This document shows, piece after piece, positions 5,405-27,035 of a stretch of 33,965 nt of DNA. Below the pieces are notes generated by a model. That model did not search any database. It saw only the letters and a program-made list of their open reading frames with translations, and was not told where the DNA came from. The translations under genes were made by a program, and so were the position numbers. Source of the DNA: a virus; IMG/VR virus record IMGVR_UViG_3300032334_000320, positions 1-33,965 of that record; one strand, 5' to 3'. The stretch's first letter is position 1; each line of letters begins with the position of its first letter.

Positions 5405-5763
5405 GTCTGAGTTACCTCTACAACTTTATACTGATATGGGAAGCTTGATAAGTATACTCTGTAAGTGCCAGGCAGGCTGAAGCTGAGTTCAGCACTGCCA
5501 TCGTCTATAGTATATGAACTACCATTTGTTCTTACCGTTGTAGGAATAGGAAGATTACTTATCACTGTTCCTGAGATACTTTCGGAGAAAGTTGGTCTTG
5601 GTGTTACACTATCATTTACTATATAAAATTTAGTATCATCCACTGAGGCATGCTCAATATAGTCTTCATCAGACAACATATCGTAAGTGATTAAGGTTTG
5701 AGGACCATAACAAGATCTAACTATCTCTCCCGATAACTTTTTATATACAATATAACTTATCAC
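5401..5763 (-). CDS. Unknown protein downstream of the tail fibre
   Basis: 120 residues, no family recognised. The N-terminal half starts MISYIVYKKLSGEIVRSCYG and is acidic. The C-terminal half (about 65-120) is beta-rich, with alternating hydrophobic residues (SYTIDDGSAELSFSLPGTY) ending in YKVVEVTQT, so a small beta-sandwich is plausible. It starts with GTG in a GTGA overlap with the fibre stop, and a GGAG from the last fibre codons lies upstream, so translation is coupled to the fibre. Location suggests a small tail-tip or fibre-associated protein. Confidence 0.75.
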   Translation of the reverse strand: MISYIVYKKLSGEIVRSCYGPQTLITYDMLSDEDYIEHASVDDTKFYIVNDSVTPRPTFSESISGTVISNLPIPTTVRTNGSSYTIDDGSAELSFSLPGTYRVYLSSFPYQYKVVEVTQT

Positions 5764-8700
5764 TTTTTTAACTCCACTACGCTCAGGGTTCTACTAGTAG
5801 CAGAAACTATTGGAGATCCTGCTGTTGGTACTGCGGAAACACTAACTCTTAAAGTATAGCTGTACGTAACAGGGTTCGTAAGACTGCCTGTAGGAGTATC
5901 TACAAATTGATAGGCAAGAGGCAGAGAGAACCCGCCATTACTAGCCACATAGAATGCCGCAGAATTCCATATTAAAGTAGAGTCTCTGTATATACTCGCA
6001 GCTACATAAGCTGGGGCAGTTCCTGTAACGGCAGTTAAAGATAACATAACTAATACAGGTTTTCCTATACTACTAAGAGAGCGTGTCTGCACAGTAGTAG
6101 TAGCGTTTTCTGGGCAACTAATTGCTCCTGAAGTGTATGCACTCTGTACGTTTGATACGGCATTATCTGTAATATATGCCGTATCAACACCTAGAGCTTT
6201 AATCTTAAGATTACCACTACCGTCTGTATCTAGAGTTAAGTTATCTAATTGAATAACGTCAGCCTTAAGACTAGCTATATAAGTACTAGTATTAGAGGAG
6301 GTTATTAGTCCATTCAGACTTGGTGCAACATAAGGAGAAGGAACAGTTGCCGAAGCACCTCTCGCCTCTTCTATCATTATACCAGTAAACCATAGGCTGC
6401 TGCTAGATGTAGTATTAGCTACTCTCGCTCCCGCAGAGGTTGTTCCAGAGTTAGTAGTAAAGGTTGTACTTACTCTAGTCCAGGTATTTGCTGTACCGGA
6501 TGTAGTAAAAGATGTAGTAGCGTCAGTTCCCACGTCGTCTAGCCTAATACGAAGCTGGCCGGCAACAGATGCTGTTGCAGCTTTTACGTAGGCAGAGTAT
6601 AGATACGTAGTATTTGGCTTTAGTACTATATTATAGGTACCAAATGTTCCCGCTAAATACGCATAGCATATAGAGCTAGCGCCAGTATTTATTCTGATAC
6701 TACCTAATCCAGACACTGGAGCCGCTGGAGACGGTGCTGAGTCTAGTACTACACTGAACGTTCCGGTGCTACTAGTAGTGGGTATGGTTGGGAGAGTGGC
6801 TTGATTGAATTGAGAATAAACAATATTTGCCAAGTTTATACCGGTTTGTCCATTATCAATACTACTTACCGGAGTAGAAGTACTTAATAAAGTAGCCCCA
6901 CTAGTATTCTTAAGTTCAAATCCGACATTACTTGAGTCCAAATAGCCTATTCTAACTAATGGATTTAAGGATGGATCCGTTATAGTCATTAACGGTTTAT
7001 TACCTGAATAAGCATTTCCATCTAACGTAAATGTAGGAGTGGTTGAGCTACCTAAATAAAGCTTATTTAATATTCCACTTTCTGCTGCTAGTACTTCGGC
7101 TTTAACACTTCCGGTAGTAATATTATTACCATCAATCGTTGTCTTACCTATCTTAGTAGTTAGATTAGTAACACTTGCGGCAGTAGGAGAAGAGAGCCCA
7201 ACAAAAGTTGCTAGTAAGATAGTATTATCTCTAGTAGCAGTGGCTCTTGTAGTAGCGTAATTTATTTGTGAATTTAAGGAAATTGTACCTGTTGTTCCGG
7301 ATGGGGCAAGGGGTACAGTATATGTTAAACTTGTAGAAGTACAAGACGTTACTGCAAAACTACCAACTGGAGGGTTAGTACCGGTTAATGTACCATATAC
7401 TTTTATTAGCTCGCCATTATTAAATGGTACATAGCCTTGATCTGCATAATTTAAAGTAACAGTAGTTCCGACTATAGAATAAGTAGTCACAGTACTTGGA
7501 GGCTTTACCCAATATAGGTAGACTGTGCCGCCCGACCAAGTAGCACTCCCAGCGTCTACTTGTCTCGCAATAGATACTCCATTATCAGTAGTAAATATTG
7601 TATTACCGGCAGTCCAAGTAACTACGTTAGTGGGCACATTTGAAGAATTTCTTTCTGCTTCAAATGTAATACTGGTTGTATCAATACCTCTCATGCCAAT
7701 AGTTAATTTATTAGCTGTGATTGTATTTGCAGCAATAGAGGCTCCGTTTATTTCAGTATTGTTTGGTCCCCCAATCCAACTAGTAAGATTAGTACTAGTA
7801 CCGGAATCAATAAGTATCTTTCCAGGTAAAATACTTGTTGAGGCAGTATTAATTCTAGCTGCTGGGTCTGCCGCTCTATCCCTTACGGTACCTAAAGTAG
7901 TCCCTGTACCATCAACAAATATACCTGGGTCTAAGAAATTACCTGGGGCAGGTACAGCGATCTTATCCGCAGTAAGAGAGCCTGCTACTATTTTATCTGC
8001 ATGAAGAGTTCCTGCTCGTATAACCCTACCACTAATTGTATTAGCGTTCATAGAAGATGAAGTGATTGATCCATCTACTATTACTTGAGCATTATTTCGT
8101 CTGATTGCTCTTACCTTAGTCCAGTATAAATTACCTGCCGTATGGTTTAGGTCGCGTATATACAACCAGCATCTACTTGCACCTGCTGGTACTGTAAATT
8201 TACCAATATACTGTGTCCAAAGTGTTGAGCTTAGGTCTGAGGGAGCAATAGTTGAGGCCCTATAAGGTCCAGCTTCTAGGTTTATAGTTCCTGCAACACT
8301 TTGAGACCCGGTAGCACTGCTAGCATAACTTACACTACTAGTTGTTGCAGCAGTCACTAAATAAGTACCATTATATGCTAATGGAGTGATTCCGCTTACA
8401 GTAATTGTATCCCCAACTAAGTAGGGAGCTACAGTTTGTGCAGTAAATGTTATAGTGGCAGTGCCTCCTGTTGCGGATGCCCCAGTAGTAGTCACTACAG
8501 CGCCCCTACTCAATAGTGTTACTGTTCCAGCAACAGTTTGAGCTCCAGTAGCATTATCTTCGTAACTAACACTACTTGCCGTTGCTGCGGTTACTACATA
8601 AGTACCATTATACCCGAGAGGTGTTACGCCCGATACTTTAATAGTGTCTCCTATTGCATACGGCGCTACAGATTGGGTTGGGAAGCTGATAGTAGCTACT

Positions 8701-11612
8701 GTTCCTGTTCCGGATGCTGCAGTTGTATTTACTATAGGAGTTAAAGTACACAGTCTATTAGTAGTGTGTGTACCATCTGACTTATAAAAGTAAGCAGATA
8801 CCTGTAGTCCATCTGCGGCTGCATAAGCTGCATTTTTTAATGCATGAATAGTAATGCTGTACTCTTCATCCTCATCTACTGCAAAACCATCCTGGTCTGC
8901 TCCGTTATCCGCGTAAGCCTTATCATGAGAGAAGGTACTTACAGTTGCAGCAGCTCCACTATAAGAGTATTTAGCTACATTAGCTGTAGGTACATCTGTT
9001 AAAGCAGTTGAAGGAAAATTACTTATAGTAGCTGCTGTAGTTTGAGCGCCAGTAGCTGTGCTAGTATAGCTGACAGAGGTAGTACTAGGTGCGGGACTTG
9101 CTAATACTGTGAAAGTACCATTATATCCTGACGGTACCGCGCCCGTAACGTAGATAGTATCCCCAGCGGAAAAGGGAGCATAAGGCTGTGTAGCAAATGT
9201 TAACGTCGCTACTGAACCGGTACCTGACATAGCAGTAGTAGTAATGCTACTAGCTATTACTGACTGGGAGGGTATAGTACCAAATGTTCTCCAATTAGTA
9301 AAATCTCCTGTAGCAAAATCAGAATTAGGGATCACATTGGATCCGGTCATTATCAGTTTGCTAGTAGTTATCGCATTTGAGGCTATTTCAGTAGCTGAAA
9401 TAGCTCCTGCTGCAATTTGTCCAGCAGTTATGCTATTAGCTACGATATCCGAACCTTCTACTGCTGCGGTATACGCGTCCGGACTCAGGGTAGTGTCCCA
9501 CCTATATAATTTTCCGGTACCCTCTAGAAGAATGGACCTGCCAACATTAGTTGTAGGTACGGTACTTCCGGGAACAATAACCACTGGCTGAATTCCGGTA
9601 GTAAACATTGACAGGGCATCAATGGCACCTGCCTGTATATCCACGTTTGCTACTTGTTCTGTTGTTGCACTTACTATGCTTGAGAATAGTCTGTAAGTAA
9701 GGCCAGTTGGTGTGCCCGCTGTAGTAGCGACAGCGGCTCCTCCAGAAGTAGTAGATAGCGTGAAGGTGGTTGAACCATTGGTTGCTATAATATAATAAGT
9801 TGTTGGATTTGTATATCCAGCTATAGAACCGGTTCCTCCAAAAGTACCACTAATTGCGACGGATGCACCAATTGCTAGAGAAGCGGTAGAGCAACTGAAT
9901 TGTCCGGCTGTTCCAGTTATGGTTACTCCAGATAGTGAACTCTCATTTCCAGATGTATCTACAGAAGTTAATTTGTAGAACCTTGTTGCCCCAGCACTTA
10001 GTCCACTTCTTGTGAAAGTACCTGCTGAAGATGCGCTTGCAGCTACAGTTCCTACAACAATATAAGTACCAGTAGAAGTGGTTGCTTCATAAATCTTAAC
10101 ATAAGCTAGATCGGATGCTGACGCATTGGTCCACGATAAGTAGACGCTCTTAAATGTAGCTGTGGCTGTGAGTCCGGTTGGTGGGGCAGGTGGAGTAGTA
10201 TCTCTAATGGTAGTTACAGATACTGGAGTGCAGAAAGCACTTCTATTATTGCTGCTATCTACTGCTTTTACCTTAACAGTATACGAGGTATTTGGCTTTA
10301 CTAACCAATCGTATGAATTAGAGGTGGTAACAAATTCAATAAATGTTCCCGAAGCTTCTTGTATAGCTACAATATAATAAGAAAAGTCTGCTTCAGCATT
10401 CGCAGTCCAGGTAGCAGCTAATTTTACCTGAATATCACCATTTGTAGTGGTAATTAAAGTACCTGTTGATGGATTAAAAGCTAGTCCAGTAGGAGTACCT
10501 GGAGCTATAGTATCTACGACTGCTCCCCTTACTTTTGAGAAAGTCTGTGTGGTCTTAATTCCAGTAAAAGTGACTCCACTACCATTGGTTCCTTCTACGG
10601 TATATTCTATTGAAGCTGTATCAGCTATCATTGACGATGCGGCAGTATATGTTGCATAGGCCCCCGCCGGTCCTGCTGAGGCTGCACCGGGAACTATAGT
10701 CCAAACATTGTATGTGAGCGTTCCCGGAGTACCTACTGTGGTAGTAATAGCTGCGCCACCAAGTGTTGCTGATAGAGTAAAGGTTGTGGTTCCATTGGTG
10801 GCTATAATATAATAAGTTTTCGGATTTGTGTGTCCACTTATTAAAGCCGTAGCCCCAGTAATAGTAATAGGAGTATTGACTGCTAAAGTAACCGATGCGG
10901 CTGAACAGCTAAACTGTCCAGCGGTACCAGTTATACTAACTCCAGATAGAGCTACTGTACTAGCTATAGCACTGGTTATTTTCCACTTGCCATTGGAAGT
11001 GCCCACACCATCATAAACTAGAGGTGTGCTGCCCTCCAGAGTAGTCAGTCTAGAGTCTCCGGAAGTAAGATAAACTTGGTTTAGTCCATCGGCATCTGTT
11101 GCTATAGAAACAGCTGGTTTGGTTAACGATACGGTTAAAGGTGAAGGGCCCACCGGCCCAGTTGCACCATCATCACCAATAAACTTACTCCAAGTATAGT
11201 GAGCTGGATTTGTGCTTTCTGTAGTGTTTGCTTTATTATAAGCAACGCCTATATACTTTCTAACTATACTACCGGAGTTATAAGCTCCGGTAGTAAAATC
11301 TACTGTCCCATCTGCACTATTAGCATAGACTATCCAGGTAAAGGTTCCCTGTGAGCCATAGTACTCCCAGAACCCATCGGCTGTGGTAGGAAGAACGGGT
11401 GGGGAGTGTATATTGCTTGGATGAGAATTGTTTGCAATACACTTCCATAATACTCCTTGATCAATAACTACGACACCTACTACGTAGTTACCAGTAGTTA
11501 CATAACTGGAAGCACTAGCTACTAACTCATTAAAAGTAGCACTACCAAAGTCTGATAGACTTGTACCTGCTGTGCCTGCTGTATTATTAAAGTCTGAATA
11601 GTATGTCTTCAT
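5760..11612 (-). CDS. Large central tail fibre with fibronectin III and repeated beta modules
   Basis: 1950 residues. In order: an N-terminal region (1-150) ending in a short collagen-like GDDGATGPVGP; a beta module at 222-303; two fibronectin III domains (about 370-470 and 474-560); a second copy of the module at 560-641; fibre-type repeats rich in ITAGQIAAGAISATEIA (about 720-755); a carbohydrate-binding-like region beginning NVIPNSDFATGDFTNW; three copies of a second module (793-863, 964-1032, 1043-1111); more TADKI-type repeats; a further module-like stretch; a second carbohydrate-binding-like region; and a beta-rich C-terminal domain. It follows the hub in the position of T5 pb4 and lambda J C-terminal parts, so it is probably a trimeric tail-tip fibre that contacts the host surface. 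ATG 11612 overlaps the hub stop as ATGA. Confidence 0.85.
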   Translation of the reverse strand: MKTYYSDFNNTAGTAGTSLSDFGSATFNELVASASSYVTTGNYVVGVVVIDQGVLWKCIANNSHPSNIHSPPVLPTTADGFWEYYGSQGTFTWIVYANSADGTVDFTTGAYNSGSIVRKYIGVAYNKANTTESTNPAHYTWSKFIGDDGATGPVGPSPLTVSLTKPAVSIATDADGLNQVYLTSGDSRLTTLEGSTPLVYDGVGTSNGKWKITSAIASTVALSGVSITGTAGQFSCSAASVTLAVNTPITITGATALISGHTNPKTYYIIATNGTTTFTLSATLGGAAITTTVGTPGTLTYNVWTIVPGAASAGPAGAYATYTAASSMIADTASIEYTVEGTNGSGVTFTGIKTTQTFSKVRGAVVDTIAPGTPTGLAFNPSTGTLITTTNGDIQVKLAATWTANAEADFSYYIVAIQEASGTFIEFVTTSNSYDWLVKPNTSYTVKVKAVDSSNNRSAFCTPVSVTTIRDTTPPAPPTGLTATATFKSVYLSWTNASASDLAYVKIYEATTSTGTYIVVGTVAASASSAGTFTRSGLSAGATRFYKLTSVDTSGNESSLSGVTITGTAGQFSCSTASLAIGASVAISGTFGGTGSIAGYTNPTTYYIIATNGSTTFTLSTTSGGAAVATTAGTPTGLTYRLFSSIVSATTEQVANVDIQAGAIDALSMFTTGIQPVVIVPGSTVPTTNVGRSILLEGTGKLYRWDTTLSPDAYTAAVEGSDIVANSITAGQIAAGAISATEIASNAITTSKLIMTGSNVIPNSDFATGDFTNWRTFGTIPSQSVIASSITTTAMSGTGSVATLTFATQPYAPFSAGDTIYVTGAVPSGYNGTFTVLASPAPSTTSVSYTSTATGAQTTAATISNFPSTALTDVPTANVAKYSYSGAAATVSTFSHDKAYADNGADQDGFAVDEDEEYSITIHALKNAAYAAADGLQVSAYFYKSDGTHTTNRLCTLTPIVNTTAASGTGTVATISFPTQSVAPYAIGDTIKVSGVTPLGYNGTYVVTAATASSVSYEDNATGAQTVAGTVTLLSRGAVVTTTGASATGGTATITFTAQTVAPYLVGDTITVSGITPLAYNGTYLVTAATTSSVSYASSATGSQSVAGTINLEAGPYRASTIAPSDLSSTLWTQYIGKFTVPAGASRCWLYIRDLNHTAGNLYWTKVRAIRRNNAQVIVDGSITSSSMNANTISGRVIRAGTLHADKIVAGSLTADKIAVPAPGNFLDPGIFVDGTGTTLGTVRDRAADPAARINTASTSILPGKILIDSGTSTNLTSWIGGPNNTEINGASIAANTITANKLTIGMRGIDTTSITFEAERNSSNVPTNVVTWTAGNTIFTTDNGVSIARQVDAGSATWSGGTVYLYWVKPPSTVTTYSIVGTTVTLNYADQGYVPFNNGELIKVYGTLTGTNPPVGSFAVTSCTSTSLTYTVPLAPSGTTGTISLNSQINYATTRATATRDNTILLATFVGLSSPTAASVTNLTTKIGKTTIDGNNITTGSVKAEVLAAESGILNKLYLGSSTTPTFTLDGNAYSGNKPLMTITDPSLNPLVRIGYLDSSNVGFELKNTSGATLLSTSTPVSSIDNGQTGINLANIVYSQFNQATLPTIPTTSSTGTFSVVLDSAPSPAAPVSGLGSIRINTGASSICYAYLAGTFGTYNIVLKPNTTYLYSAYVKAATASVAGQLRIRLDDVGTDATTSFTTSGTANTWTRVSTTFTTNSGTTSAGARVANTTSSSSLWFTGIMIEEARGASATVPSPYVAPSLNGLITSSNTSTYIASLKADVIQLDNLTLDTDGSGNLKIKALGVDTAYITDNAVSNVQSAYTSGAISCPENATTTVQTRSLSSIGKPVLVMLSLTAVTGTAPAYVAASIYRDSTLIWNSAAFYVASNGGFSLPLAYQFVDTPTGSLTNPVTYSYTLRVSVSAVPTAGSPIVSATSRTLSVVELKK
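7275..7485 (-). repeat. Fourth, divergent copy of beta module B in the fibre
   Basis: The translated stretch from TTYSIVGTTVTLNYADQGY through ELIKVYG to TGTISLN follows the same plan as the three clearer copies upstream: a Val/Thr strand, a YxPFxxG(E/D)xIxVxG strand pair, a short Gly-rich turn, TSxSLTY and a closing TGTISL. Boundaries are approximate. Similarity is at pattern level only, so the assignment is less certain than for the other copies. Confidence 0.5.
8280..8486 (-). repeat. Beta module B, copy 3 in the fibre
   Basis: Residues 1043-1111 of the fibre, closely matching copy 2: VAPYLVGDTITVSGITPL, YNGTYLVTAATTSSVSY, then ATGSQSVAGTI. It lies immediately after copy 2, separated by about ten residues. 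The protein match is strong, but many third codon positions differ. Confidence 0.85.
8517..8723 (-). repeat. Beta module B, copy 2 in the fibre
   Basis: Residues 964-1032 of the fibre: ASGTGTVATISFPTQ, VAPYAIGDTIKVSGVTPL, YNGTYVVTAATASSVSY, ATGAQTVAGTVTL. It interrupts a carbohydrate-binding-like region just after a strand ending in RLCTLTPI. Confidence 0.85.
9024..9236 (-). repeat. Beta module B, copy 1 in the fibre
   Basis: Residues 793-863: MSGTGSVATLTFATQ, YAPFSAGDTIYVTGAVPSG, YNGTFTVLA, SVSYTSTATGAQTTAATI. It is set into the region starting NVIPNSDFATGDFTNW, some 30 residues after that motif, and looks like a loop insertion. Confidence 0.85.
9690..9935 (-). repeat. Beta module A, copy 2 in the fibre
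   Basis: Residues 560-641. It shares with copy 1 LSGV(S/T)ITGTAGQFSCS, TNPxTYYIIATNG, TTFTLS, GGAA and TLTY/GLTY. It begins exactly where a fibronectin III domain (DTSGNESS) should end, and the fibronectin context resumes with VSATTEQV after it. The 18-base DNA string for TYYIIA is shared with copy 1. Confidence 0.88.
10704..10949 (-). repeat. Beta module A, copy 1 in the fibre
   Basis: Residues 222-303, homologous over 82 residues to the copy at 560-641. It starts LSGVSITGTAGQFSCSAAS and contains HTNPKTYYIIATNGTTTF. It lies N-terminal to the first fibronectin III domain. Confidence 0.88.
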
Positions 11613-14600
11613 TGAACTACCTTATATCTTATCCAATAGTACCTAATTGTACCACCTCCTGTGCTCGTATTAGGAGCGAATCTATCTATGTATTTTTGAG
11701 TTCCAGAAACTGCTAATACAGTGTCTACTAACGAGGCTGAGGCCAGACTATTAGTATCTGATCTCCATATTTCTACGTAAGTATTTGATATACTAGTGTC
11801 TGTTGGATTGACCCAGCTAAGTTCTATTTGGTTGTACTTATTAGACGTAGTATTTAATGTACCGGAAGGCACACCAGGTTTTTTACCTGGCATAAATCCA
11901 ATTGCCGTACCAGAATTAGTGGTAGCCGCTGTCGTAGATCCAGCAGCCTTTCTTATATTAGATAATGAGTAGAAACTATCATCGTATTCTTTTGCAACAA
12001 TATCTACTAGGCCGTCCGGTTGATAATTTACTGATTCTATTCTGAACTTCTTTCCGGGGCTTGTCCAGTTATATCTTGGATAAACTACCTGTATAACAGT
12101 GCCAGCAAGAAATAGGATACCGTGATACCTAACCGTCATACTAATAGATAGTCCAAATCTGGACTTATTAAGAAAACTATCTGCCAGTAGTCTAGTATTA
12201 TAGTAATTGGTTATTCCTGGGATTGATAGATTTCCCTTCTTTGGTACATTTCTATCTGCTTTTAAATAGTCGGAATTAAAGAAACTTACATTTCTAGCCT
12301 CAAACTTATTAGCCGGATCAGCAAATGCTGCTGTTAATGAGTTAAACGCAGATCGTGTACCTTCATCACTAAGTTGAATTTTGCCTATGATATCATCCGT
12401 AGTAATAGTTCTAATATCAGTAGTATCTATAGTTCCTGCCGCTTCTTCTACATCTAGATAGTACTTACCTGATGTATATCTAAGTATACCATTGAAGTGC
12501 TCTAGTAATGCATTGATGTTATCAAATAGAGGAACAGAAGTATCAATACCTATATTGCATTGGTTTCTTGTAACATATCTTTGTGCGTGCTCGTCCCAGC
12601 CACATAATCTCCAATAGTTAATGTCATCGGAATCATATAGTGAATAACCAGAATTTTTATTTCCATTTAGCCAAGTCTGAATTGGGTTGCCGGTAGCAGG
12701 AACGGTTGGTAAAGTAATAGTGCTGCTTCCAGAACCGCTTACCTTTGATACAGCAAAGCTTGTTGTCAGTGTTGTGCCCTGAGTACTAGAGCTAGTTGGC
12801 TCTGTAGCTATTACTCCCGCTGTAGTTATAGTGAAGAATTCGTAGGATGAGTTATATATAATCTCGCCCACCTTCCAAGACTTCCAAGAGTTCCACTTAT
12901 TTGTTAATTTACCTATAACATCTGTGAAGGTAGTTAAGTACTTTGTAGTTCCCTCTACAGTAACTGAGTATGTATCTACTGAAGCTATGCCTTGCCAAAT
13001 TAAGTTGCCTCCTACTACATAGTTGTATTTGTCTCCAATAAGTGCTGCAGGATTCCCAGTTGAAAGTATAGTAATATCTGATCTAGTATCACATTTTCTT
13101 CCGGCCTCTGTCCACGATGTGAGATCTATATCCTTATATGGATCTAATCCTCTACCATATGTTTTGGAAGTTACATAATCAAGTAGCTGTATAGCTGGAT
13201 TTATGCTTACTCTACCGTCAGCATACTTAGGATAAATTCTAACGGAGTCACCACTGGTACCAGTACCTACTGGAATGAAATCCCAGATAGTATCTATGGT
13301 TGCAATTTTATTAGTACCATCATAGCCAATAATCTCAGCCACCTGTACTATGCTTTTACCAGTTGTAGTATATCTCGTTACTTCTATGAGATAACCCTTA
13401 TAATAATCGGCTACTGAAGAAGCTGTAGAGGCTAATTTGATGGTATTCTTTGAAGCTAGTATGGCTCCGGTTGGTAGACCGGCCGCCTCGCTACTATAAT
13501 CTGTGTATTTATAGTAAGTAGTTAAGCTACTAGAGCTGACGGCGCTTCCAACAAATATAGCGTATGGAAATAGTGTTCCGCCACTTATTGGAGTATAGTC
13601 ACTATTTAAAACCTGAAACTTAGCGGTAGCATTGACTGGATCACCTTCAATTGGCATATTAGCATTTGTAGTATAGTTAATAGCTAGGCTTGTTCCTGCT
13701 GTAGTAAATCCTGTTGTTGAATAGGGAGTTGATATAGGAGAAGATATCGCTGCTCCTACAAATCGTCTGTTTACTGTATCTGAATACTCTGCACCATAGA
13801 TATTATAGTTATGAGTAACCATTGTCCACTTATTACCAACGCTATCCTTCATATAGAACTTTGTTATAGAAGGCTTACCGTTAACATACGCTAGTATGGT
13901 TTCCATAGCCGTGCCGTTGTCAAAGCGAAATCTAGTATTAATATCACCATCTGGGCTCATGAATGTCCACTTGTCAACAATCTGAAGTCCAGTTGCTAAA
14001 GGTACTTCAGCCAGAGATGCGTTAATATAGTAAAGTCCTATGCCAGTTTCACCAAGTGGGAAATTATCTGATAATTCTGAGACTACAGTTCCAGATGTAG
14101 CACTACCAGTTGCTGTAGTAGGAACTACTACTGTAGTTGATGTAACGCTTGAGATGGTTTTGCTGGTGAAGTTAAGAGCAGAATTCGAGGCATTAATAAG
14201 TGATATAGTTTGACCAGCTATTAATCCATGTCCAGTAGGTACAGTTATGGTCATATTACCAGCACTAATGCTAATAGTAGTGGCTGCTATGATTCCTGCC
14301 TTCTCGTCATGTAAGTAGCTATAGTCGTAGTTATAGCAGTCTATTACCTTACCTCTTACTACAAATTTAATCTCTGGAATAGTGGTATCGCCTTCTGCGA
14401 TTTTATACTTTCCAACTATGTAAGCGGTATCTAGTAATTTATGGTTTGGTCCCCAATACTCTGAAGTATCAGTTCCGGTCCAGTAATTATTTTGTACTCT
14501 AAAGTTTTTGGCGTAAGCAATATCACATAAAGCAGCAGAGGCGCTCTGTCCTGGCTTCCCTGTAAAAACATCTAGAGTAAAATTAATTGGTGTTGTGAGA

Positions 14601-16153
14601 GAGATAGATTCTCCATCAATGATACCATAATCATTATACGTTGATAAATTTGATACTGCTGAATACTGTCTTGCATACCACTCAGCTATATAATTGAAAT
14701 TCCCTCTATAAAGAGAATTTCCTTCTCCAGTAACATCATAGAAAAATCTAGGAAGGGCTGCTATAGATGATTGACCATTTAGAACATCTCCTCTATCAGA
14801 TCTTCCTACACAAGTTAGTTGTACAGACGAATTTTGATCTGTGGTTCTAGTCACTCCTGCAGTGGTGATGCCGCTCGCAGATCTAACATCAAAATCTGCC
14901 TTATCGTTACAGATCATGCTTAGGCCATCGACGTATATATCGTAGATACCTCCGATTTCTCCCTCACTTAGGGCGACTGCGGCGTATACTGTTGAGCTAT
15001 CATTATTTAATGTATCTGCAAAAATTGGAATACCTTCTGCTATTCTTACTCCGTAAATGATTGGAATAGCTTTAGCATTTAACTGAAAGTCGAGAACAGT
15101 ATTTCTATCCTCTGGCACCATCTGTTTCTTTGTCTTGACGCTGGCGCCGATACCTAGGAACCCTTTCTTTGAACTTACGTCAATCTTTTCTACCATCACA
15201 CTATACTTTGACAGTAGGTTTACTGACATTTCTGCGTGATTAAATCCTTTATCGTATGCGTATCCTGGCTTAAGAGTTGACGTAGGCTGTGGGATACCAT
15301 TTGCATCTAGTGCTCTATGTGCGGAGTCTGATGTAATTCTGCCTTTTACCTGAGCAAAGTCTCCCCAGTGACTAGAGAGTCCCCAAGTAACTTTAATTGC
15401 TGTTTCGGAGTCCTCGAAAGAGACGTTCTGAATAATTCCTTTGAAAAGCGGAAGAGGTGCTCCGACAATTACACCATTTTGAAAATAAGCTCTATAAATA
15501 TAGACCTCTCTATTAATAAAAGAAGCATATTCAGCGTCATTCTTATTTAGTAAAATACTAATTATTTCTTCGGAAGATAGTGTAAAGGGACAATCAGTGA
15601 TTGTTCCAGCAGTTAGTACACTATCAATTTTAGAAACTCTTACTACGTTATTTGCTCTAAATGACTGTATATTTACACTAATACCATTTACTGTTATTTT
15701 ATCGCCTTCTCTAAACCCTGCTGCGAGGAAGTCATCAATATTTATAGGTGCAGATAAAGCTATATCCCAAGGGCCGGTGCCACTGATGGTGACAGTAGCC
15801 TCTATATACGCGCCAATAGCATTACCATCAAGAACTATACTAGTATTTGATGTGGTGGCTTTTGTCTGCTCTTGCACTGCTCCAACACTTAGAACCTTAT
15901 TTGCAAGATAGGTTTGTGAACCATTTAAAGTACCTTGTAGGTCAGTACTTCCATCATCAAAGCTCACATTAATACTGGCATCGGTTAGATAGGTATAGCG
16001 CTGAGCAGCAGTAGATACTAGGCCGGACAGTGCATCCGGCCTAGAAGGTCTTTCAAACTTAATGAGATGAGCATATTGAAATGGCTCATTATTAACGAGC
16101 ATAGCCTTTATAGGCTGCTGTGCGGTAGTTAATGGTCTTTCAGTTGTACTCAT
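11609..16153 (-). CDS. Tail hub / tip attachment protein (T5 pb3- or lambda J-like)
   Basis: 1514 residues. The N-terminal part (about 20-290) resembles hub proteins with strands such as YLTDASINVSFDDGS and a SSHWGDFAQVKGRIT segment. Next is a J-like segment, IPIIYGVRIAEGIPIFADT, then SEGEIGGIYDIYVDG (about 365-425). A beta-rich insertion of the kind repeated in the fibre lies at about 620-690 (NMTITVPTGHGLIAGQTISL). The C-terminal 93 residues form one fibronectin III domain (IELSWVNPTDTSISNTYVEIW), linking in style to the fibre that follows. Its place between a distal-tail-like protein and the fibre matches the T5 order. It would form the tail-tip hub through which the tape measure and DNA exit. 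Overlaps are ATGA at both ends. Confidence 0.82.
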   Translation of the reverse strand: MSTTERPLTTAQQPIKAMLVNNEPFQYAHLIKFERPSRPDALSGLVSTAAQRYTYLTDASINVSFDDGSTDLQGTLNGSQTYLANKVLSVGAVQEQTKATTSNTSIVLDGNAIGAYIEATVTISGTGPWDIALSAPINIDDFLAAGFREGDKITVNGISVNIQSFRANNVVRVSKIDSVLTAGTITDCPFTLSSEEIISILLNKNDAEYASFINREVYIYRAYFQNGVIVGAPLPLFKGIIQNVSFEDSETAIKVTWGLSSHWGDFAQVKGRITSDSAHRALDANGIPQPTSTLKPGYAYDKGFNHAEMSVNLLSKYSVMVEKIDVSSKKGFLGIGASVKTKKQMVPEDRNTVLDFQLNAKAIPIIYGVRIAEGIPIFADTLNNDSSTVYAAVALSEGEIGGIYDIYVDGLSMICNDKADFDVRSASGITTAGVTRTTDQNSSVQLTCVGRSDRGDVLNGQSSIAALPRFFYDVTGEGNSLYRGNFNYIAEWYARQYSAVSNLSTYNDYGIIDGESISLTTPINFTLDVFTGKPGQSASAALCDIAYAKNFRVQNNYWTGTDTSEYWGPNHKLLDTAYIVGKYKIAEGDTTIPEIKFVVRGKVIDCYNYDYSYLHDEKAGIIAATTISISAGNMTITVPTGHGLIAGQTISLINASNSALNFTSKTISSVTSTTVVVPTTATGSATSGTVVSELSDNFPLGETGIGLYYINASLAEVPLATGLQIVDKWTFMSPDGDINTRFRFDNGTAMETILAYVNGKPSITKFYMKDSVGNKWTMVTHNYNIYGAEYSDTVNRRFVGAAISSPISTPYSTTGFTTAGTSLAINYTTNANMPIEGDPVNATAKFQVLNSDYTPISGGTLFPYAIFVGSAVSSSSLTTYYKYTDYSSEAAGLPTGAILASKNTIKLASTASSVADYYKGYLIEVTRYTTTGKSIVQVAEIIGYDGTNKIATIDTIWDFIPVGTGTSGDSVRIYPKYADGRVSINPAIQLLDYVTSKTYGRGLDPYKDIDLTSWTEAGRKCDTRSDITILSTGNPAALIGDKYNYVVGGNLIWQGIASVDTYSVTVEGTTKYLTTFTDVIGKLTNKWNSWKSWKVGEIIYNSSYEFFTITTAGVIATEPTSSSTQGTTLTTSFAVSKVSGSGSSTITLPTVPATGNPIQTWLNGNKNSGYSLYDSDDINYWRLCGWDEHAQRYVTRNQCNIGIDTSVPLFDNINALLEHFNGILRYTSGKYYLDVEEAAGTIDTTDIRTITTDDIIGKIQLSDEGTRSAFNSLTAAFADPANKFEARNVSFFNSDYLKADRNVPKKGNLSIPGITNYYNTRLLADSFLNKSRFGLSISMTVRYHGILFLAGTVIQVVYPRYNWTSPGKKFRIESVNYQPDGLVDIVAKEYDDSFYSLSNIRKAAGSTTAATTNSGTAIGFMPGKKPGVPSGTLNTTSNKYNQIELSWVNPTDTSISNTYVEIWRSDTNSLASASLVDTVLAVSGTQKYIDRFAPNTSTGGGTIRYYWIRYKVVQ
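14090..14290 (-). repeat. Beta-module-like insertion in the hub
   Basis: Residues about 620-690 of the hub: a Thr/Val strand, GHGLIAGQTISLINA, then TSKTISSVTSTTVVVPTTATGSATSGTVV. The order of strands, the AGQTI-type turn and the closing ATG...SGTV echo fibre module B. It sits between YDYSYLHDEKAG and ELSDNFPLGETG, which read as continuous hub sequence. Edges are approximate. Confidence 0.55.
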
Positions 16154-16905
16154 GGTTGTATTTCTTCCAATGATAATGAGAATTGATACAGATTATCTGT
16201 ATCTAAGTCATACTCTAGAGTATCTCCTTTTTGGATTACTCTGAACTTAGGGTTTATAAAATTAATTACTGAACCTGTAGCTACGGCTCTCGCTATAGGA
16301 GGCTGTGTCCAAATTCTTCTCTGTGTAGATGAAGGAACTGTGGTGCCCACTTGGTAAGTCGTTGCATCCTCTACTCTTAGTACCTTGTATGCTTTCTTAT
16401 GATTTGCATCGGTAGCATCAGTAATAGTAAAGAAATCTCCAGGGCTTGGCGCTCCAGAGCTTACTCCGGCCATTACAATAGTAGGTGAGCCTGCAGGTGT
16501 AGTGCCAGCAACGCCTGTGTTTGTCTGGGAGTATGCTGTTACACCACTAAGGTTTGCTAAAGTATATGATGCAAAAGCAGCATTCTTTGGTCTAGAATGT
16601 TGTGGTAAAATAACATAGAAAGGGCTTAGTCTTCCTCTACGGCTTTCTAGAAAAGAGGCTACTGGATCAAACTCATCACGAGTCATTGGATTATAGTTGA
16701 TGTCAAACGACCACTTATGAAAGCCGGGAGAGGCGGCTACGCCCCTCCCGCTTATTGTTCTAGACACCTGGGTATTATTTTCCGAGGTAAATTTAATCTT
16801 AGCAAAACCGGGTCCTGCAGATCCCGAAGCATCTGTAGCTCCGGCGTTATTTATTTTATTATTCGGATCTGGTAACAGATCAGAAAAACTTGTAAAAGTT
16901 GCCAT
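16150..16905 (-). CDS. Distal-tail-like minor tail protein
   Basis: 251 residues. The conserved-looking core is FHKWSFDINYNPMTRDEF (62-79) followed by FLESRRGRLSPFYVILPQ (85-102), typical of small minor tail proteins made of two beta-sheets. The C-terminus is beta-rich (FRVIQKGDTLEYDLDTDNLYQFSLSLEE). Residues about 138-205 look like an insertion with a PGDFFTITDATDANHKKAYKV core, similar in plan to the modules of its neighbours. By order (tape measure, this gene, hub, fibre) it fills the slot of T5 pb9, the distal tail protein that joins tube and tip; sequence alone does not prove this. ATG 16905 overlaps the tape-measure stop by one base (TAATG), and the stop overlaps the hub start as ATGA. 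Confidence 0.72.
   Translation of the reverse strand: MATFTSFSDLLPDPNNKINNAGATDASGSAGPGFAKIKFTSENNTQVSRTISGRGVAASPGFHKWSFDINYNPMTRDEFDPVASFLESRRGRLSPFYVILPQHSRPKNAAFASYTLANLSGVTAYSQTNTGVAGTTPAGSPTIVMAGVSSGAPSPGDFFTITDATDANHKKAYKVLRVEDATTYQVGTTVPSSTQRRIWTQPPIARAVATGSVINFINPKFRVIQKGDTLEYDLDTDNLYQFSLSLEEIQP
16291..16494 (-). repeat. Beta-module-like insertion in the distal-tail-like protein
   Basis: Residues about 138-205: AGSPTIVMAGVSS, PGDFFTITDATD, KKAYKVLRVEDATTYQVGTTV. The (P/G)GD-x-(F/I)-T-I and KAYKV-x-x-V strands parallel the GDTI...NGTYVVTA core of module B. Boundaries are approximate and homology is inferred from pattern only. Confidence 0.4.
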
Positions 16906-22900: not shown

Positions 22901-23657
22901 ATAAGCCACCAAACTTTATAGTACCTTCAGTAACTACTGCATTTAGCATAGCTTGTCGTTTTTCAAAAGAAGATAGGGACTGTACACTTTTATTATTAGT
23001 TAATGCGTATTGACTTTGAGCTTCAGTTAATTTGGTCATAATACCAAGCTCATCTAAAAGTTCAGGTTCTAACTTAGTAACGCCCTTACTAATTCTATCT
23101 AATGAATCAGGAACATTCCTACCAAGAGCTAGAGACGCATCATAAGCTACTTGTGTTAGGTCTTTCATACCTTTGGCAGAGAATCCGGCAGAAGACATTA
23201 ATGCGGTAGCTTGCATCGCATCTGCTGCACTAATAGAATAATCTGTTATCTTTTGTAAAGATTGGGATACCCTTATTAAAGATTTACCTGTTCTTGCCCC
23301 TTGTGTTTCTAGGCCCTTCATCATCTGCTCTACTTGAGCAGCATTTCTTAGTGCACTGAAAGCAGCACTAACCGCAAAAGCATTAGTTGCAAGTGTCGCG
23401 TATGCCGCCACTAGTCCACTATTATTTCCGCCTACTGTATCTAATAATTTGGACATGCTTCTAGCGGAGTTGTTAGCACTAGCAACCCCGCCATTTAAAG
23501 CATCTCTATGTTTATTGGCATTCTTAGCTGCGTCTCCTTGAGCCGTACTAAGATCCCCTACTGCCTTACCGGCCTTTCTTATATTTTTTTCCGCTAGTAC
23601 TAAAGATCCGTCTTCACGAACCTTAAATACCATAGTAAATTCTGCGCTATTTGCCAT
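16905..23657 (-). CDS. Tape measure protein with embedded LAS-type peptidase-like domain
   Basis: 2250 residues. The N-terminus has the helical start of tape measures and a conserved SSAGFSAKGMKDLTQ region (about 150-170). The middle is long coiled coil rich in Gln, Lys, Glu and Ala. Hydrophobic stretches occur near 295-320, 566-590, 1969-1990 and 2052-2090, able to enter membranes. At about 1630-1720 is a possible zinc-peptidase site: SEHWGPNANADDW (His1642, Asp1650/1651) and HENHFH (1705-1710). The C-terminus has the FVVGEKGPEVITPETP motif usual for this family (about 2160-2175). It sets tail length (at about 0.15 nm per residue, up to about 340 nm) and leaves the tail on infection. A poor ribosome-binding site precedes ATG 23657, after a 49-base gap. 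Confidence 0.93.
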   Translation of the reverse strand: MANSAEFTMVFKVREDGSLVLAEKNIRKAGKAVGDLSTAQGDAAKNANKHRDALNGGVASANNSARSMSKLLDTVGGNNSGLVAAYATLATNAFAVSAAFSALRNAAQVEQMMKGLETQGARTGKSLIRVSQSLQKITDYSISAADAMQATALMSSAGFSAKGMKDLTQVAYDASLALGRNVPDSLDRISKGVTKLEPELLDELGIMTKLTEAQSQYALTNNKSVQSLSSFEKRQAMLNAVVTEGTIKFGGLSKEIGANPYDKLAASFSNLITTIESGLNTILTPLVALFGGNQTALLGGIILFVSTIRKQMLPALYAMGQLAQKRQQNFVNMAAEARDAAKATLELANAQQKAAVSSKAEKLIGPELRTKATSKGFDYEAAAVSAVDQDAEAHAKNIAKLDNSISTRMKNIRRERGELTEQEIAAGVVAKGWSKNYIDTKEAEVRSIQKVKAALEDLYNTQKKGESGVIAARAKSKAENTKFRANEKAALSEKLKGESIELAGEGKIREAMAKRREALQEEQKKLKYERIARSREGITQLPPIFDKLKLGMTGVSTGAQLASTAFMKFIPYIGWATTAVGALWAAYENWGRSEATKVQIKAMEDLKLANEAASKSAKEFQRIQELNVPLGQKIAQSLTIQSNTTAQISQAFKEAQEAIKSAIKADKNKDTASTFWQSIIGNEEDITSYATGIARNSKFLPAVQKELENSTAAQIGALAGGIPGLILEKITGKPSDTRKIGMYFAQMLPPELAGLNQEAIESAKAMDNLSRVMDQDVYNAMVKAYGGIDKLANSNGLRKTFIQEAATAYEGLADAVSALSEAYKKTGDAITKFFNDAIPKTPFDELIDGFRGINEQFYQLSKVAGSAGAIKQMALLSNMPDELKRLLDPKSRQTVEDFKTADVNANKAKALKEEYESTIATLEAKRRKTEEDKYALAIAQQRLPVERKNLEAAEAQKQAAADHAEEVKTNLLQTQQQLTLYQNQVRNQQNQLTLANAITKAYSEFYSQTASGTKLRLERENQAIELQKAQIQAQLSMIEIYANQATAQLNLLKIEQERLKAGRELSLQEATNEASAAQAVMSAARGSAVDTGINQDWLSGVASHLRSIQDTTSKAFTDYKALTDAQEKSWTVQQVTEAKSYISAVKNYEIATRLRDKMHEVQVVKLNINDLDQQQKALSTSIAALSSQQLNKDEINVRVKEAQAEQTRQMEATEQKIVSLKSQNKVLDDKITASLTGRQGALKFELAASLSQLKIDRDAAELETKGTIGKLKGEQEIAKAALTRKDLDEEHRKLLNEIITNKETEIAKQVEINNLTQEQINLKAKQSIIEQIIGSGIQFTSGKLKESIDLLERRALLTQEVADKESRLAQARSTLAVTKAGGTVNERAQKQFAVESAQIALNAAEENYRIRMESIKAEYQLLAAQKDVQVEEIKSRVFFLSALMKMMGMQDDTGMKQNLQNLVDAASNLQTVDYSKMQRAAERSAYLDVELARTNLEQAKVARDVRPIDNAVLNFFRNLPEEMASKTREIAAAQAGEDARRIAAIEKPKLTIDQGQLQQLLLQTSYLKDILETLSKNTLIDPKDIKALSTPTTQVVAEGDRLPATAASLATVIKEVFGANSYIGDNSQHSKFVKGTKRISEHWGPNANADDWIPEGGLTKYTAATAQKMLEEGLAKHGLKIGKGTTGATQFFGPGKPTKPGDTSHENHFHTAVEAMADTTTRAITTINNAVSNITGETAAEASKPKIDEQRRKEVTDLKLQADYVATTAGQVTEKTTQAVTKATMDFGQLVIGLLDSALADMDKLGQQMAERLGQDFGPQGRVISALSNLINETRNFSKDISDSWKGLFPKTPVGIGGPINDFPVAMNAQSVSAVSGMVQPVNTTLAGSISAAAPAAPLTGGVDNLGSSVSGLSGLSQTTTELSGGLDNLASKAAETAKVSTDSIKAASAEVNVAQTKTTEGFNKQMQSASVAFGAIAGMIGAVAGLLKASSDAKIAGIDKEIAAEQKRDGKSAASVAKLDALEKKKDAQARKSFNVQKKLMMAQAVMSTAAGIAGALGSNPGITGIILASIIGAMGAAQIAIIAGTQYESSYTPKSVSTPTNLSIGKRGDSVDLAKGSNATAGGEVGYLRGSEGQGTNASNYRTVGSAYGGELMRGYGNRGFVVGEKGPEVITPETPISVTPANDVGSAQPINANFTIQALDSHGVQDILVSQKGNIIKMLREAANASGKTFMEDVNVNVYTRPSVGKL

Positions 23658-23706
23658 CCTATTTCTTCTTGACGGAATCCGTTCTTACCAAAAACTAAGT
23701 TTTGAG

Positions 23707-24069
23707 TTACTTCTTTTTAACTGAGTCTCTAGCCTTTTTCATTTGATCAGCTGATCTCTTTATGAGGCTAGCATCAAGCCTTACAAGTGCCTCTAGAAAA
23801 ATATCTTTCTCTGTCACTCCCACTACTTCCATGTGTAATGGTAGCGCTACGTAATCTTTTCCCATATAGCCTATATCGGGATAGACTCTATCGCCTAGTC
23901 TATTAAAGACTTCTATAGCTTGTTGTAAAGGTAGCGGAAAATCCTCATAGTCAGGAGGGCATTTAGCTTCAGATGGTTCCTGGCCCATTTGTTCACACAT
24001 GGCCAGGTACCTATCTTTTGTCATGCCTATATCTATATTATTCTGCCACTTTTCCAGTCGCTGCCACAT
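23707..24069 (-). CDS. Second tail-assembly-chaperone ORF (gpT-like position)
   Basis: 120 residues; helical and charged, with a Lys-rich end (ADQMKKARDSVKKK) and a CPPDYEDFPLPLQQAIEVFNRLGD segment in the middle. It lies between the first chaperone ORF and the tape measure, where lambda gpT and its equivalents occur, usually made only as a frameshift extension. Its frame is +1 (equivalently -2) to the first ORF and opens at a TAG about 30 bases upstream of ATG 24069. AAGGGAG stands only three bases before that ATG, short for a ribosome-binding site but possible. Independent initiation, coupled reinitiation or a -2/+1 frameshift are all open. Confidence 0.78.
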   Translation of the reverse strand: MWQRLEKWQNNIDIGMTKDRYLAMCEQMGQEPSEAKCPPDYEDFPLPLQQAIEVFNRLGDRVYPDIGYMGKDYVALPLHMEVVGVTEKDIFLEALVRLDASLIKRSADQMKKARDSVKKK

Positions 24070-24484
24070 TAGCTCCCTTTGGCTCTGTACGAAAGTTCTC
24101 TAGATCGAACACCGTATCATTCACCCAAGTGTCAAACTCTGATGAGTTAGTAACTAGTAGCTTAGCATTATCTTGACTATATGGAAGTTCCTTTTCAGGA
24201 TCGACCTTTGAAATATCCACTAGTACGAAATCCTGTAGGAACTTGTACTTGAATCCTTTCCAGTTCTTGATCGTAGCCTTGGTGAACTCTGAAATGAACT
24301 TTTCTTCATTTAGTTCTTCCACAGGCTTACGTGTGTTCTTGTCATACTTAGTAATTAAGCAACGCTTACGTAGCGCTGTTAATTCGGGCCGAGAAAGATT
24401 TACTACTTCTACTTCAAAGCCTTCATAGCCTGGGTACTCTACCCATGCTGACTTTGTATCGACCATTAGTTCACTTAAATTCAT
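24038..24484 (-). CDS. First tail-assembly-chaperone ORF (gpG-like position)
   Basis: 148 residues, acidic, with SRPELTALRKRCLITKYDKNTRKP then EEKFISEFTKATIKNWKGFKY, a pattern of phage tail chaperones that resembles T5-like and other siphophage proteins in this slot. They coat the tape measure and recruit tube subunits. TAAGGAGT lies 7 bases before ATG 24484. Its 3' end overlaps the second ORF by 32 bases. An in-phase heptamer A-AAG-GGA lies at 24080-24074 near its end, but a -1 slip there meets TAA after one codon (AGC), so it cannot produce the usual fused product. Confidence 0.8.
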   Translation of the reverse strand: MNLSELMVDTKSAWVEYPGYEGFEVEVVNLSRPELTALRKRCLITKYDKNTRKPVEELNEEKFISEFTKATIKNWKGFKYKFLQDFVLVDISKVDPEKELPYSQDNAKLLVTNSSEFDTWVNDTVFDLENFRTEPKGANVAATGKVAE

Positions 24485-24493
24485 TATTACTCC

Positions 24494-25462
24494 TTAGTTG
24501 ATTAGAGCTATTAGACCACTATTTGCTGGAACGCTGAAGTTCATGGCTGTGGCTGTCTTAGCGGTTTTGTAAATTGGCTCTACTATAGTAGAGTTAGAAT
24601 TGAGTCTGAAATCGTAGACTCTGTTTATTAGCTCTTCGAAATTCAATCTTCTAGTAAATACCGCTGAGGGTAGAGTGAATCTCAAAAGAGGATTAGTTGC
24701 TGAGTATCCCAAATAATAAATACTAATATCTACAGGAGAGCTTGTGCTAGTATCAAATAAAGTATCTGAATTCTGAGATGTAATAAACTGAGTTATGGAC
24801 CCAGATAATGTTCTTCCTTGTAGTACATAAGAGTCTGGGTACATCATCGTGCTAGTAACAGCCTGATTAATTGTTGTGTACCCACCCCAGTTTATATCAT
24901 TCTTTAAATCCATATGAACTGCCGCTATGCTATCCAGCGTTACATTTGATATGGAGATATTTAGGCGATCTACTGTTGTGTAAGTTCTACCAAATCTATT
25001 TTCAGCATCTGCTAATCCTGGGATCCTTGCGGCACCTCCTACATTACCAAATTTGGCTAATTTTGATGAGGTTCCAGATACCGATACTGTTAATACTGCT
25101 CTCATTTCTACATTGAAAGCCATAGATTCTACGACGCAATTATTTAAAACATAAATAACGTTATCGGATTGTATATATAGATCAAAGGAACTTAGAGTTC
25201 CGCTAGAATAATCGGACCCTAGATTTAGGATTACGGGAGGATATCCTATGTTAGGAATAGGAGTGGTGAAAGAAAAATTAGCAGGATTTGCTTTATTGAC
25301 TACTGCATGATCGTGCAAGTCAGTCAAATTATGTAGCGTTTTTCTCTTATAGCCTTGCTCGTCAAAGGTTTGAGAAGCAGTTATATCTGAATATAGGTCT
25401 ATACGGTGGGTCGCACCAGAATATACTATATAGGCTTTTACGTTCTTTTTAAAGTTGTACAT
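24494..25462 (-). CDS. Second tail-tube-like protein (paralogue of major tail protein)
   Basis: 322 residues, mostly beta. It has the same segment order as the neighbouring major tail protein: a strand pair YVLNNCVVESMAFNVEMRAVLTVSVSGTSSKLA corresponds to YRIRDCCVNEATVNFEIDGITTISFSGMGTKIA in the neighbour, and a later LQGRTLSGSITQFIT corresponds to VTGTRSISGSFTCYA. It could be a minor tube ring, an initiator at the tip or a tube-terminating protein; sequence does not decide. It follows its own sigma70-like promoter. ATG 25462 has only a weak ribosome-binding match (TAAG), while a better AAGGA lies in the loop of a hairpin 25 bases upstream. The gap to the next gene is 9 bases. Confidence 0.75.
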   Translation of the reverse strand: MYNFKKNVKAYIVYSGATHRIDLYSDITASQTFDEQGYKRKTLHNLTDLHDHAVVNKANPANFSFTTPIPNIGYPPVILNLGSDYSSGTLSSFDLYIQSDNVIYVLNNCVVESMAFNVEMRAVLTVSVSGTSSKLAKFGNVGGAARIPGLADAENRFGRTYTTVDRLNISISNVTLDSIAAVHMDLKNDINWGGYTTINQAVTSTMMYPDSYVLQGRTLSGSITQFITSQNSDTLFDTSTSSPVDISIYYLGYSATNPLLRFTLPSAVFTRRLNFEELINRVYDFRLNSNSTIVEPIYKTAKTATAMNFSVPANSGLIALIN

Positions 25463-25474
25463 ATCTTACACGAA

Positions 25475-25502
25475 GGGGGAGCAAAATTCCTTCTGCTCCC
25501 CC
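25475..25502 (-). other. 5'-UTR hairpin with AAGGA loop
   Basis: A 9-bp stem, GGGGGAGCA with TGCTCCCCC, encloses a ten-base loop that contains AAGGA. It starts about 5 bases after the predicted transcription start and ends 12 bases before ATG 25462. It is not followed by a U-run (TTCGTGTAAG follows), so it does not look like a terminator for the major tail gene. A role in stabilising the 5' end or in modulating translation is inferred. Confidence 0.7.
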
Positions 25503-25513
25503 GAGTTTCTATA

Positions 25514-25542
25514 ATTATAGAATGGTTGGTCCTTAAAGTCAA
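25514..25542 (-). promoter_or_regulatory. Sigma70-like promoter for the second tube protein and downstream tail genes
   Basis: On the minus strand: TTGACT (25542-25537), a 17-base spacer and TATAAT (25519-25514), eleven of twelve consensus positions. Predicted start at A25508 or A25507. It lies in the 94-base gap between two genes and so is not a coding by-product. It would drive the second tube protein, chaperones, tape measure and tail-tip genes, probably using host RNA polymerase. Confidence 0.85.
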
Positions 25543-25556
25543 GAACTATTTTTGTA

Positions 25557-27035
25557 TTAGGATACGTAGCGAATTTTGGTTAGTTCGTCTGTACCACTAA
25601 TGGTGCTTGGTAGAGCTGTGAAGTTAACTTCATATCCAATTACATCATCAATATTGATTGTTGGAATCTCTAAGTGGCACTGTCCTAGATCAAACATGAT
25701 ACCTGGTGAAGCAGGATACCCCGCGGTACCGCCTCTTCCGCCAACGAAGAACTGTAGAGCAAACTTATTTGTAATTAGTCCTGTAGCCCCTAGAAGATCT
25801 TCATACAGCTGAATGCTTCCGTTAGTTATTTCGTCTGCATAGCAAGTGAAGCTTCCGCTTATTGAACGAGTTCCAGTCACATGTCCTAGTGGTGTATTAA
25901 CCACACCAATTGATTCTGGTGTTAGGAAGGTCATATTATTGCTAATAGTGATACTTCCGCCTGTTAGGGTTATACCATAGGTCTTAGCGCCAATACCAGT
26001 ATTTGAAGTATCACTGACTAGGCTTAATGAAGTTAGTCTATTACGAATCATATTAGTGGTACCTGCTGCACCAGTAGTAATTAGAGTATAGACAGTGCTT
26101 GCTGGCTCTCCTGGGTTACTTGCTGTTCCAGTGAAAGTCCATGAAGCTAGTTCTGCAATCTTTGTTCCCATTCCTGAGAAAGAAATAGTTGTAATACCAT
26201 CAATTTCAAAGTTTACGGTAGCTTCATTAACGCAGCAATCACGAATTCTATAGATTGTAGTAGCATCTGACGCTGTATAAGTATCTGCAGTACCACCAGC
26301 CTTACTTGCTCCAAGAACAAAGTATAGGTCAAAAGTACCTAGCTTTGTCTTATTTGAAGAAGTTGGGAGGAAGTCTAGTTCTGTTGCAGTTGTTGCAAAA
26401 GTGGTTGATACTACTTTTGCTCCTGCTGACGCGGTTACCGTACCTGATACAGTAGAAGGCACTGCACAGCTAACTGTAGTATTTGTCACTGCTGTAACGG
26501 TAAAAGTACCAGTAGCACCTACTGTACCAGTAGCTGCCGATAACCCACTTGTTGTTATCCTATCACCAACCTTGAAATATGTACCACCAGTTGGTGCCGC
26601 AGCTAGTGTAATTGTCATGATATTATCGGCTGTTCCACCTGTTACAGCGATTGTTGCTGCGGTGGTTCCTGCAGTAATTGCATAACCTGCTGCTAGTCCT
26701 GCTGCTGGGTACAGTACTGTTTCTGATAGCATTGAGTGCCATAGAATTTCTTCTGGTGCACGAACAACAGTTGAAAGTGTTGGACGAGCATAAAGATCGA
26801 AGCTCCATTCAGCTGGAGCTAAGGAATCGTTAAAAGAAGCTTGTCCACGACGACTATTACCAGTGGCACTTGCCATTTCGTTTAGTGTTACTTGACTTGA
26901 ATTTGTTGATTGACTAAATGAATACCCATTAAGTACTGGGAGCAACCATACGTTAGCTGTTGTTGAGCCGGTGTACTGAACTGCGTACACCTTTGTATCT
27001 CTATTGAAGAAGAGGTTTGTATCACCTACTGCCAT
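25557..27035 (-). CDS. Major tail tube protein
   Basis: 492 residues, beta-rich and nearly free of long helices, in the position of T5 pb6. It begins MAVGDTNLFFNRDTKVYAVQ and includes a WSFDLYARPTLS segment, a YRIRDCCVNEATVNFEIDG strand pair and LGHVTGTRSISGSFTCY, features common to tube proteins with duplicated tube domains. Residues 120-207 look like an inserted beta module (VGDRITTSG, GTFTVTAVTNTTVSC). AGGAG lies 9 bases before ATG 27035. It forms the tube rings stacked along the tape measure; a paralogue follows across a 94-base gap. Confidence 0.85.
   Translation of the reverse strand: MAVGDTNLFFNRDTKVYAVQYTGSTTANVWLLPVLNGYSFSQSTNSSQVTLNEMASATGNSRRGQASFNDSLAPAEWSFDLYARPTLSTVVRAPEEILWHSMLSETVLYPAAGLAAGYAITAGTTAATIAVTGGTADNIMTITLAAAPTGGTYFKVGDRITTSGLSAATGTVGATGTFTVTAVTNTTVSCAVPSTVSGTVTASAGAKVVSTTFATTATELDFLPTSSNKTKLGTFDLYFVLGASKAGGTADTYTASDATTIYRIRDCCVNEATVNFEIDGITTISFSGMGTKIAELASWTFTGTASNPGEPASTVYTLITTGAAGTTNMIRNRLTSLSLVSDTSNTGIGAKTYGITLTGGSITISNNMTFLTPESIGVVNTPLGHVTGTRSISGSFTCYADEITNGSIQLYEDLLGATGLITNKFALQFFVGGRGGTAGYPASPGIMFDLGQCHLEIPTINIDDVIGYEVNFTALPSTISGTDELTKIRYVS
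26415..26678 (-). repeat. Beta-module-like insertion in the major tail protein
   Basis: Residues about 120-207: TIAVTGGTADNIMTITLAA, TYFKVGDRITTSGLS, GATGTFTVTAVTNTTVSC, STVSGTVTASA. The plan closely follows fibre module B (GDxI-x-x-SG, GTFTVTA, SVSY/TVSC, SGTVTA). The insertion is likely exposed on the tube surface. Confidence 0.6.

Follow-up and report, generated by a model that had tools for sequence, protein, structure and literature searches.

The window, meaning the whole stretch of DNA analysed here, is a 33,965-base IMG/VR virus record with a siphophage tail cluster on its minus strand. The cluster encodes the tail fibre, hub, distal tail protein (Dit), tape measure, baseplate tube and major tail protein (MTP), and it also includes head genes. 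About 900 named T5-like records match the window MTP and hub, all at less than 60% identity, and the source phage is an uncultured T5 relative. A single 969-residue ORF at 29536-32445 on the minus strand looks like a fusion of a prohead protease and a major capsid protein. Three tail proteins of the window, the fibre, hub and MTP, carry all-beta modules of 70-84 residues, here named A and B. The genes and modules are as follows.

5760..11612, minus strand: tail fibre P0001, 1950 aa, bearing A1, A2 and B1-B4
10695..10946, minus strand: module A1, fibre residues 223-306; 94 bits with a profile A free of window sequences
9681..9932, minus strand: module A2, fibre residues 561-644; 122 bits; adjoins the end of an fn3 domain
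9021..9239, minus strand: module B1, fibre residues 792-864; 82 bits
8514..8726, minus strand: module B2, fibre residues 963-1033; 90 bits
8277..8489, minus strand: module B3, fibre residues 1042-1112; 86 bits; in near-tandem with B2
7272..7481, minus strand: module B4, divergent, fibre residues 1378-1447; 31 bits
11609..16153, minus strand: baseplate hub, T5 pb3 homologue, phrog_31; one module
14066..14299, minus strand: B-like hub module, divergent, residues ~619-696; 17.7 bits, 0/1000 shuffles
16150..16905, minus strand: Dit, pb9-like, phrog_1302 (1.4e-19); no module in the window
25557..27035, minus strand: MTP, T5 pb6 homologue lacking the C-terminal Ig domain, Phage_tube_2; one module
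26403..26678, minus strand: B-like MTP module, residues ~120-211, after the first helix; 14.5 bits, 0/1000 shuffles

Scores were taken from profiles built from other phages; window sequences were left out of both, and the B profile excluded relatives of the window as well. Each stretch was compared with 1000 composition-preserving shuffles, and every module in the fibre, hub and MTP scored above all 1000 of its own. Iterated searches of all the fetched loci included no reversed decoys. The first-pass annotation had counted two copies of A, three clear copies of B and one possible B in the fibre, and these assignments hold, B4 being a divergent copy. Pairwise comparisons within the fibre (z against 500 shuffles) gave 29 for A1-A2, 19-31 for B1-B3 and 5-8 for B4; the hub and MTP modules scored weaker than the fibre copies in such comparisons. 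Similar stretches had been reported in the hub, MTP and Dit. Those in the hub and MTP are modules, but the Dit stretch scores 0.0 bits against the module profiles, and 465 of its 1000 shuffles do as well.

The same annotation placed A and B in one family with a shared plan, a claim that did not survive comparison. Neither pairwise shuffles nor profile scoring detected sequence similarity between A and B, and hhalign gave the pair a probability of 23 (reversed control, 0.2). As the plan of short strands is shared but sequence similarity is undetectable, A and B are treated as two families, and a single superfamily is not supported. An alignment that pooled six B copies proved too diverse for use as a search query. 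Six module sequences were compared with Pfam: down to hits as weak as E 10 none matched Ig or fn3, and the search returned no CBM or lectin family. No NCBIfam or Pfam entry corresponds to A or B, no relative of either was found among solved structures searched by sequence (the B profile gave only chance-level matches to renin), and no description of them was found in the open-access papers searched. E1 FCCH (PF16190), considered as a candidate family, had no Pfam match with the modules, and a literature search found no link between it and phages. The initial description of an undescribed system is therefore retained in part: the module families are undescribed as far as tested, but the strategy of insertion is already known.

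The MTP is similar to pb6 by sequence (E 1e-82) and by fold, its predicted structure matching the pb6 tube domain with a Foldseek E of 7e-26 and TM of 0.60-0.78. The profile match stops at pb6 residue ~356, where the window protein also ends, and no Big_2 match to a C-terminal Ig-like domain was found. In the AlphaFold2 model (pTM 0.82), which Foldseek matches to T5/DT57C tubes, the module follows the first helix and contains six strands. A model of fibre residues 466-660, the fn3-A2 stretch (pLDDT 90, pTM 0.81), has five strands in A. A wider fibre alignment with both A and B rows misplaced the B rows onto A2, and that alignment was left out of the folding. The modules in the MTP and fibre are thus predicted to form compact strands. 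In Foldseek the fn3 part of the fibre stretch matches fn3 domains, and the best viral match (90 columns, 0.9 A, 69% identity) is to a pectate-lyase-type protein from an uncultured phage, which is consistent with that protein carrying an A module.

Insertion into recognisable fibre domains had also been proposed. A2 does adjoin the last strand of the fibre fn3 domain, but in two relatives about 10 extra residues separate fn3 from the module at the A2 position. The proposed interruption of a carbohydrate-binding-like region is not borne out: CBM_4_9 exceeds its cut-off only at fibre residues ~1658-1726, where there is no module. Around B1-B3 it remains below the cut-off (E 0.002-0.01), and a Pfam scan of the fibre stretch with the modules excised gave no gain in the CBM match.

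The survey of related phages, which the first-pass annotation had suggested, reveals that the presence of modules varies at sites in the fibre, hub, MTP and Dit. In the fibre, A1 is missing at intact sites in both relatives, L091 and L087. A2 is present in both and has an empty counterpart in L019, and B4 is present in L091 and missing at an intact site in L087. The hub matches T5 pb3 in three stretches (E 1.4e-96), and its insert is flanked by ...YNYDYSYLHDEK and ...SELSDNFPLG. Among the 58 aligned hubs that span this site the insert occurs in the window only; the other 57 are without it. At a second hub site, near the C-terminal fn3 region, seven relatives have a module, but the window, L092, L091 and L087 do not. 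An earlier hub stretch (residues 108-195) is marginal (9.7 bits, 1/991 shuffles) and conserved across the aligned hub relatives, and is probably integral to the hub.

About 14 near relatives share the MTP module, which is tandemly doubled in L012, and its site is empty in L019, L079, L098, L050, T5 pb6 and most distant MTPs. Five MTPs hold different inserts, unrelated to the module, at the same site, and four of these inserts are of the type ...GTNAVI...VTERGQKF..GQSITI... The five proteins are listed below.

L037:1355-3007: MTP with another insert
L045:1-1497: MTP with another insert
L049:1340-3034: MTP with another insert
L053:1189-2961: MTP with another insert
L059:3-1358: MTP with another insert

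Since different and unrelated inserts occupy the same place, this position resembles a hot spot for insertion.

The window Dit is related to the DT57C distal tail protein by a weak but collinear match (E 0.005). The match to the T5 pb9 type, in which the B (OB) domain is integral, spans the A domain and the GD...NH.K.YK stretch. The stretch reported as module-like is present in the aligned Dit relatives and has a counterpart in the distal tail protein of DT57C/T5, and for these reasons it is regarded as integral and not as a module. Modules do occur in the Dits of relatives. The L095 Dit bears a B module that shares 56% identity with fibre B2; its near relative L094 has none at that site, with flanks 88% and 78% identical. 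In the L098 Dit, a second site is occupied by a module that fits the A profile. Modules in four tail proteins had been claimed for this phage; three carry them in the window, but the relatives' Dits supply the fourth. With these Dits and the second hub site filled, four tail proteins of the clade take modules at at least eight sites.

The modules had been viewed as a family spreading through the virion of one phage. They are in fact found across hundreds of phage contigs from metagenomes, with A (query A2) in at least 283 IMG/VR stretches and B (query B2) at at least 79 IMG/VR loci; seven proteins bear both. The 167 module-bearing host proteins fall into 37 groups that lack similarity outside the modules, although several may have been merged in one group of 81. 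The hosts that could be assigned comprise, among others, Dit, a tail protein, tail fibres and a virion structural protein (phrog_3287). The phrog_3287 protein has A and/or B at several sites in different phages (e.g. L178:5074-7440 and L106:3684-6509), and its relatives in L198 and L195 have no modules. Very long proteins in L144:1-9351, L155 and L159 hold four to seven B copies each, and some B copies within one such protein are ~42% identical to each other. Neither module is common in prokaryotes, as far as a pattern scan of 84,980 genomes can detect them: module A was absent from the matches listed, and module B was present in one MAG contig among them. This B-bearing contig (L258), from an Opitutae MAG, may be phage sequence. 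In tblastn against named phages, where the low-complexity filter may hide some matches, neither module gave a match except for one weak B match in a metagenomic Caudoviricetes record.

An empty counterpart was found for 90 of 279 module copies. The modules are shown to be discrete in-frame insertions, since relatives have the homologous sites without them, and the original claim of repeated insertion is upheld by these empty and occupied sites and by the many otherwise unrelated host proteins. Between unrelated hosts, amino-acid identity is 60% for A and 46% for B. Identity at fourfold sites is 0.276 for A (0.254 expected) and 0.283 for B (0.272 expected), so that these sites are near saturation in both families. 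Because the protein is conserved while fourfold sites approach the identity expected from composition, the modules appear to have diverged for a long time under purifying selection. A recent mobile DNA cassette is ruled out by the near-saturated fourfold sites. Even the most similar module pairs in unrelated hosts have a DNA identity of only ~61-72%. No obvious duplication indicative of direct-repeat or target-site scars was seen at the junctions compared, those of the Dit in L095/L094 and of the hub in window/L092, where the flanks have diverged too far for a clear reading.

As a whole, these observations are probably best explained by two families of beta domains, repeatedly inserted in frame, that would serve as exchangeable accessory binding domains on the virion surface. 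Under this explanation A and B have entered tail proteins of aquatic T5-like phages, and many other phage proteins too, again and again. They would face outwards from the virion, both on the tail tube and at sites that vary in the hub, Dit and fibre. There they may act in binding or adsorption, probably through contact with glycans or the cell surface, and over long periods recombination among phages could have led to their gain, loss and exchange. Because Pfam links the modules to no family of CBMs, Ig domains or lectins, the adhesion role is argued by analogy. That the MTP carries a module instead of the C-terminal Ig domain found in pb6 supports, by the same kind of analogy, a putative outward decoration. 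A broader proposal is more tentative and somewhat less likely than not to be correct in full: that A and B are new phage-specific surface-binding families, circulating among aquatic tailed phages as interchangeable decorations that take, at many sites, the role which Ig-like domains and CBMs have in cultured phages.

The modules could instead be structural clamps or spacers that stabilise tube rings, or make the fibre longer and stiffer, without binding anything beyond the virion. The six predicted strands of the MTP module, and its position after the first helix and before the core strand that follows, fit this idea; the position is of the type occupied by domain2 of YSD1, which folds onto the neighbouring subunit (PMC8718954). 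However, families found in unrelated proteins are unlikely to have one fixed partner surface, and presence is polymorphic at most sites, and therefore the modules are not needed for assembly. A clamp or spacer role is accordingly considered unlikely, though it is the most credible of the rivals. Far less probable is that the modules are tolerated hitchhikers, functionless sequence in permissive loops. Their sites do look like loops and many relatives lack them, but strong conservation of the protein with near-saturated synonymous sites is not expected of neutral inserts.

Hardly any weight is given to the reading that no real family exists and that mere Thr/Ser/Gly-rich beta composition links stretches integral to each protein. 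It holds for the Dit stretch, which fails the shuffle comparison, and probably for the early hub stretch. It is refuted for the fibre, hub and MTP: for all the other stretches none of the 1000 composition-preserving shuffles reaches the score, the searches drew in zero reversed decoys, and empty sites exist in relatives.

If the modules of the two inserted families bind something, they would be widespread and uncatalogued parts of phage attachment, and their strong protein conservation would point to a shared target. The occupied and empty pairs are natural comparisons, with and without a module, for the effect of tail decoration.

The arrangement probably works like two known systems, the Ig-like domains and the CBM inserts of evolved tail proteins. 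CBM inserts in Dit, Tal and MTP bind hosts, some of them through host polysaccharide (PMC6669499, PMC7291167, PMC10688798). Like those of the "evolved" Dit, Tal and MTP of lactic acid bacteria siphophages, the modules are discrete loop inserts in several virion proteins, their presence varies among relatives, and insertions in Dit, hub or MTP have empty sites in relatives. Unlike A and B, which have no Pfam CBM match, the evolved proteins have recognisable CBM folds (such as BppA) and demonstrated host binding. Their phages infect lactic acid bacteria, whereas the carriers of A and B are T5-like and metagenomic. Ig-like domains also occur on phage virions (Fraser et al. 2006, as reviewed in PMC9022992), and they resemble the modules in being small beta domains that fibre, baseplate and tube proteins share promiscuously. 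T5 pb6 has such a domain whereas the window MTP has none, and the modules differ from Ig-like domains in having no Pfam Ig or fn3 match and in being mostly internal rather than C-terminal. In its position the MTP module is like domain2 of the YSD1 MTP (PMC8718954), a beta domain of a tube protein that likewise comes after the first helix and before the next strand of the core; YSD1 ranks very low, at 48, in the structure search with the window MTP (E 0.068).
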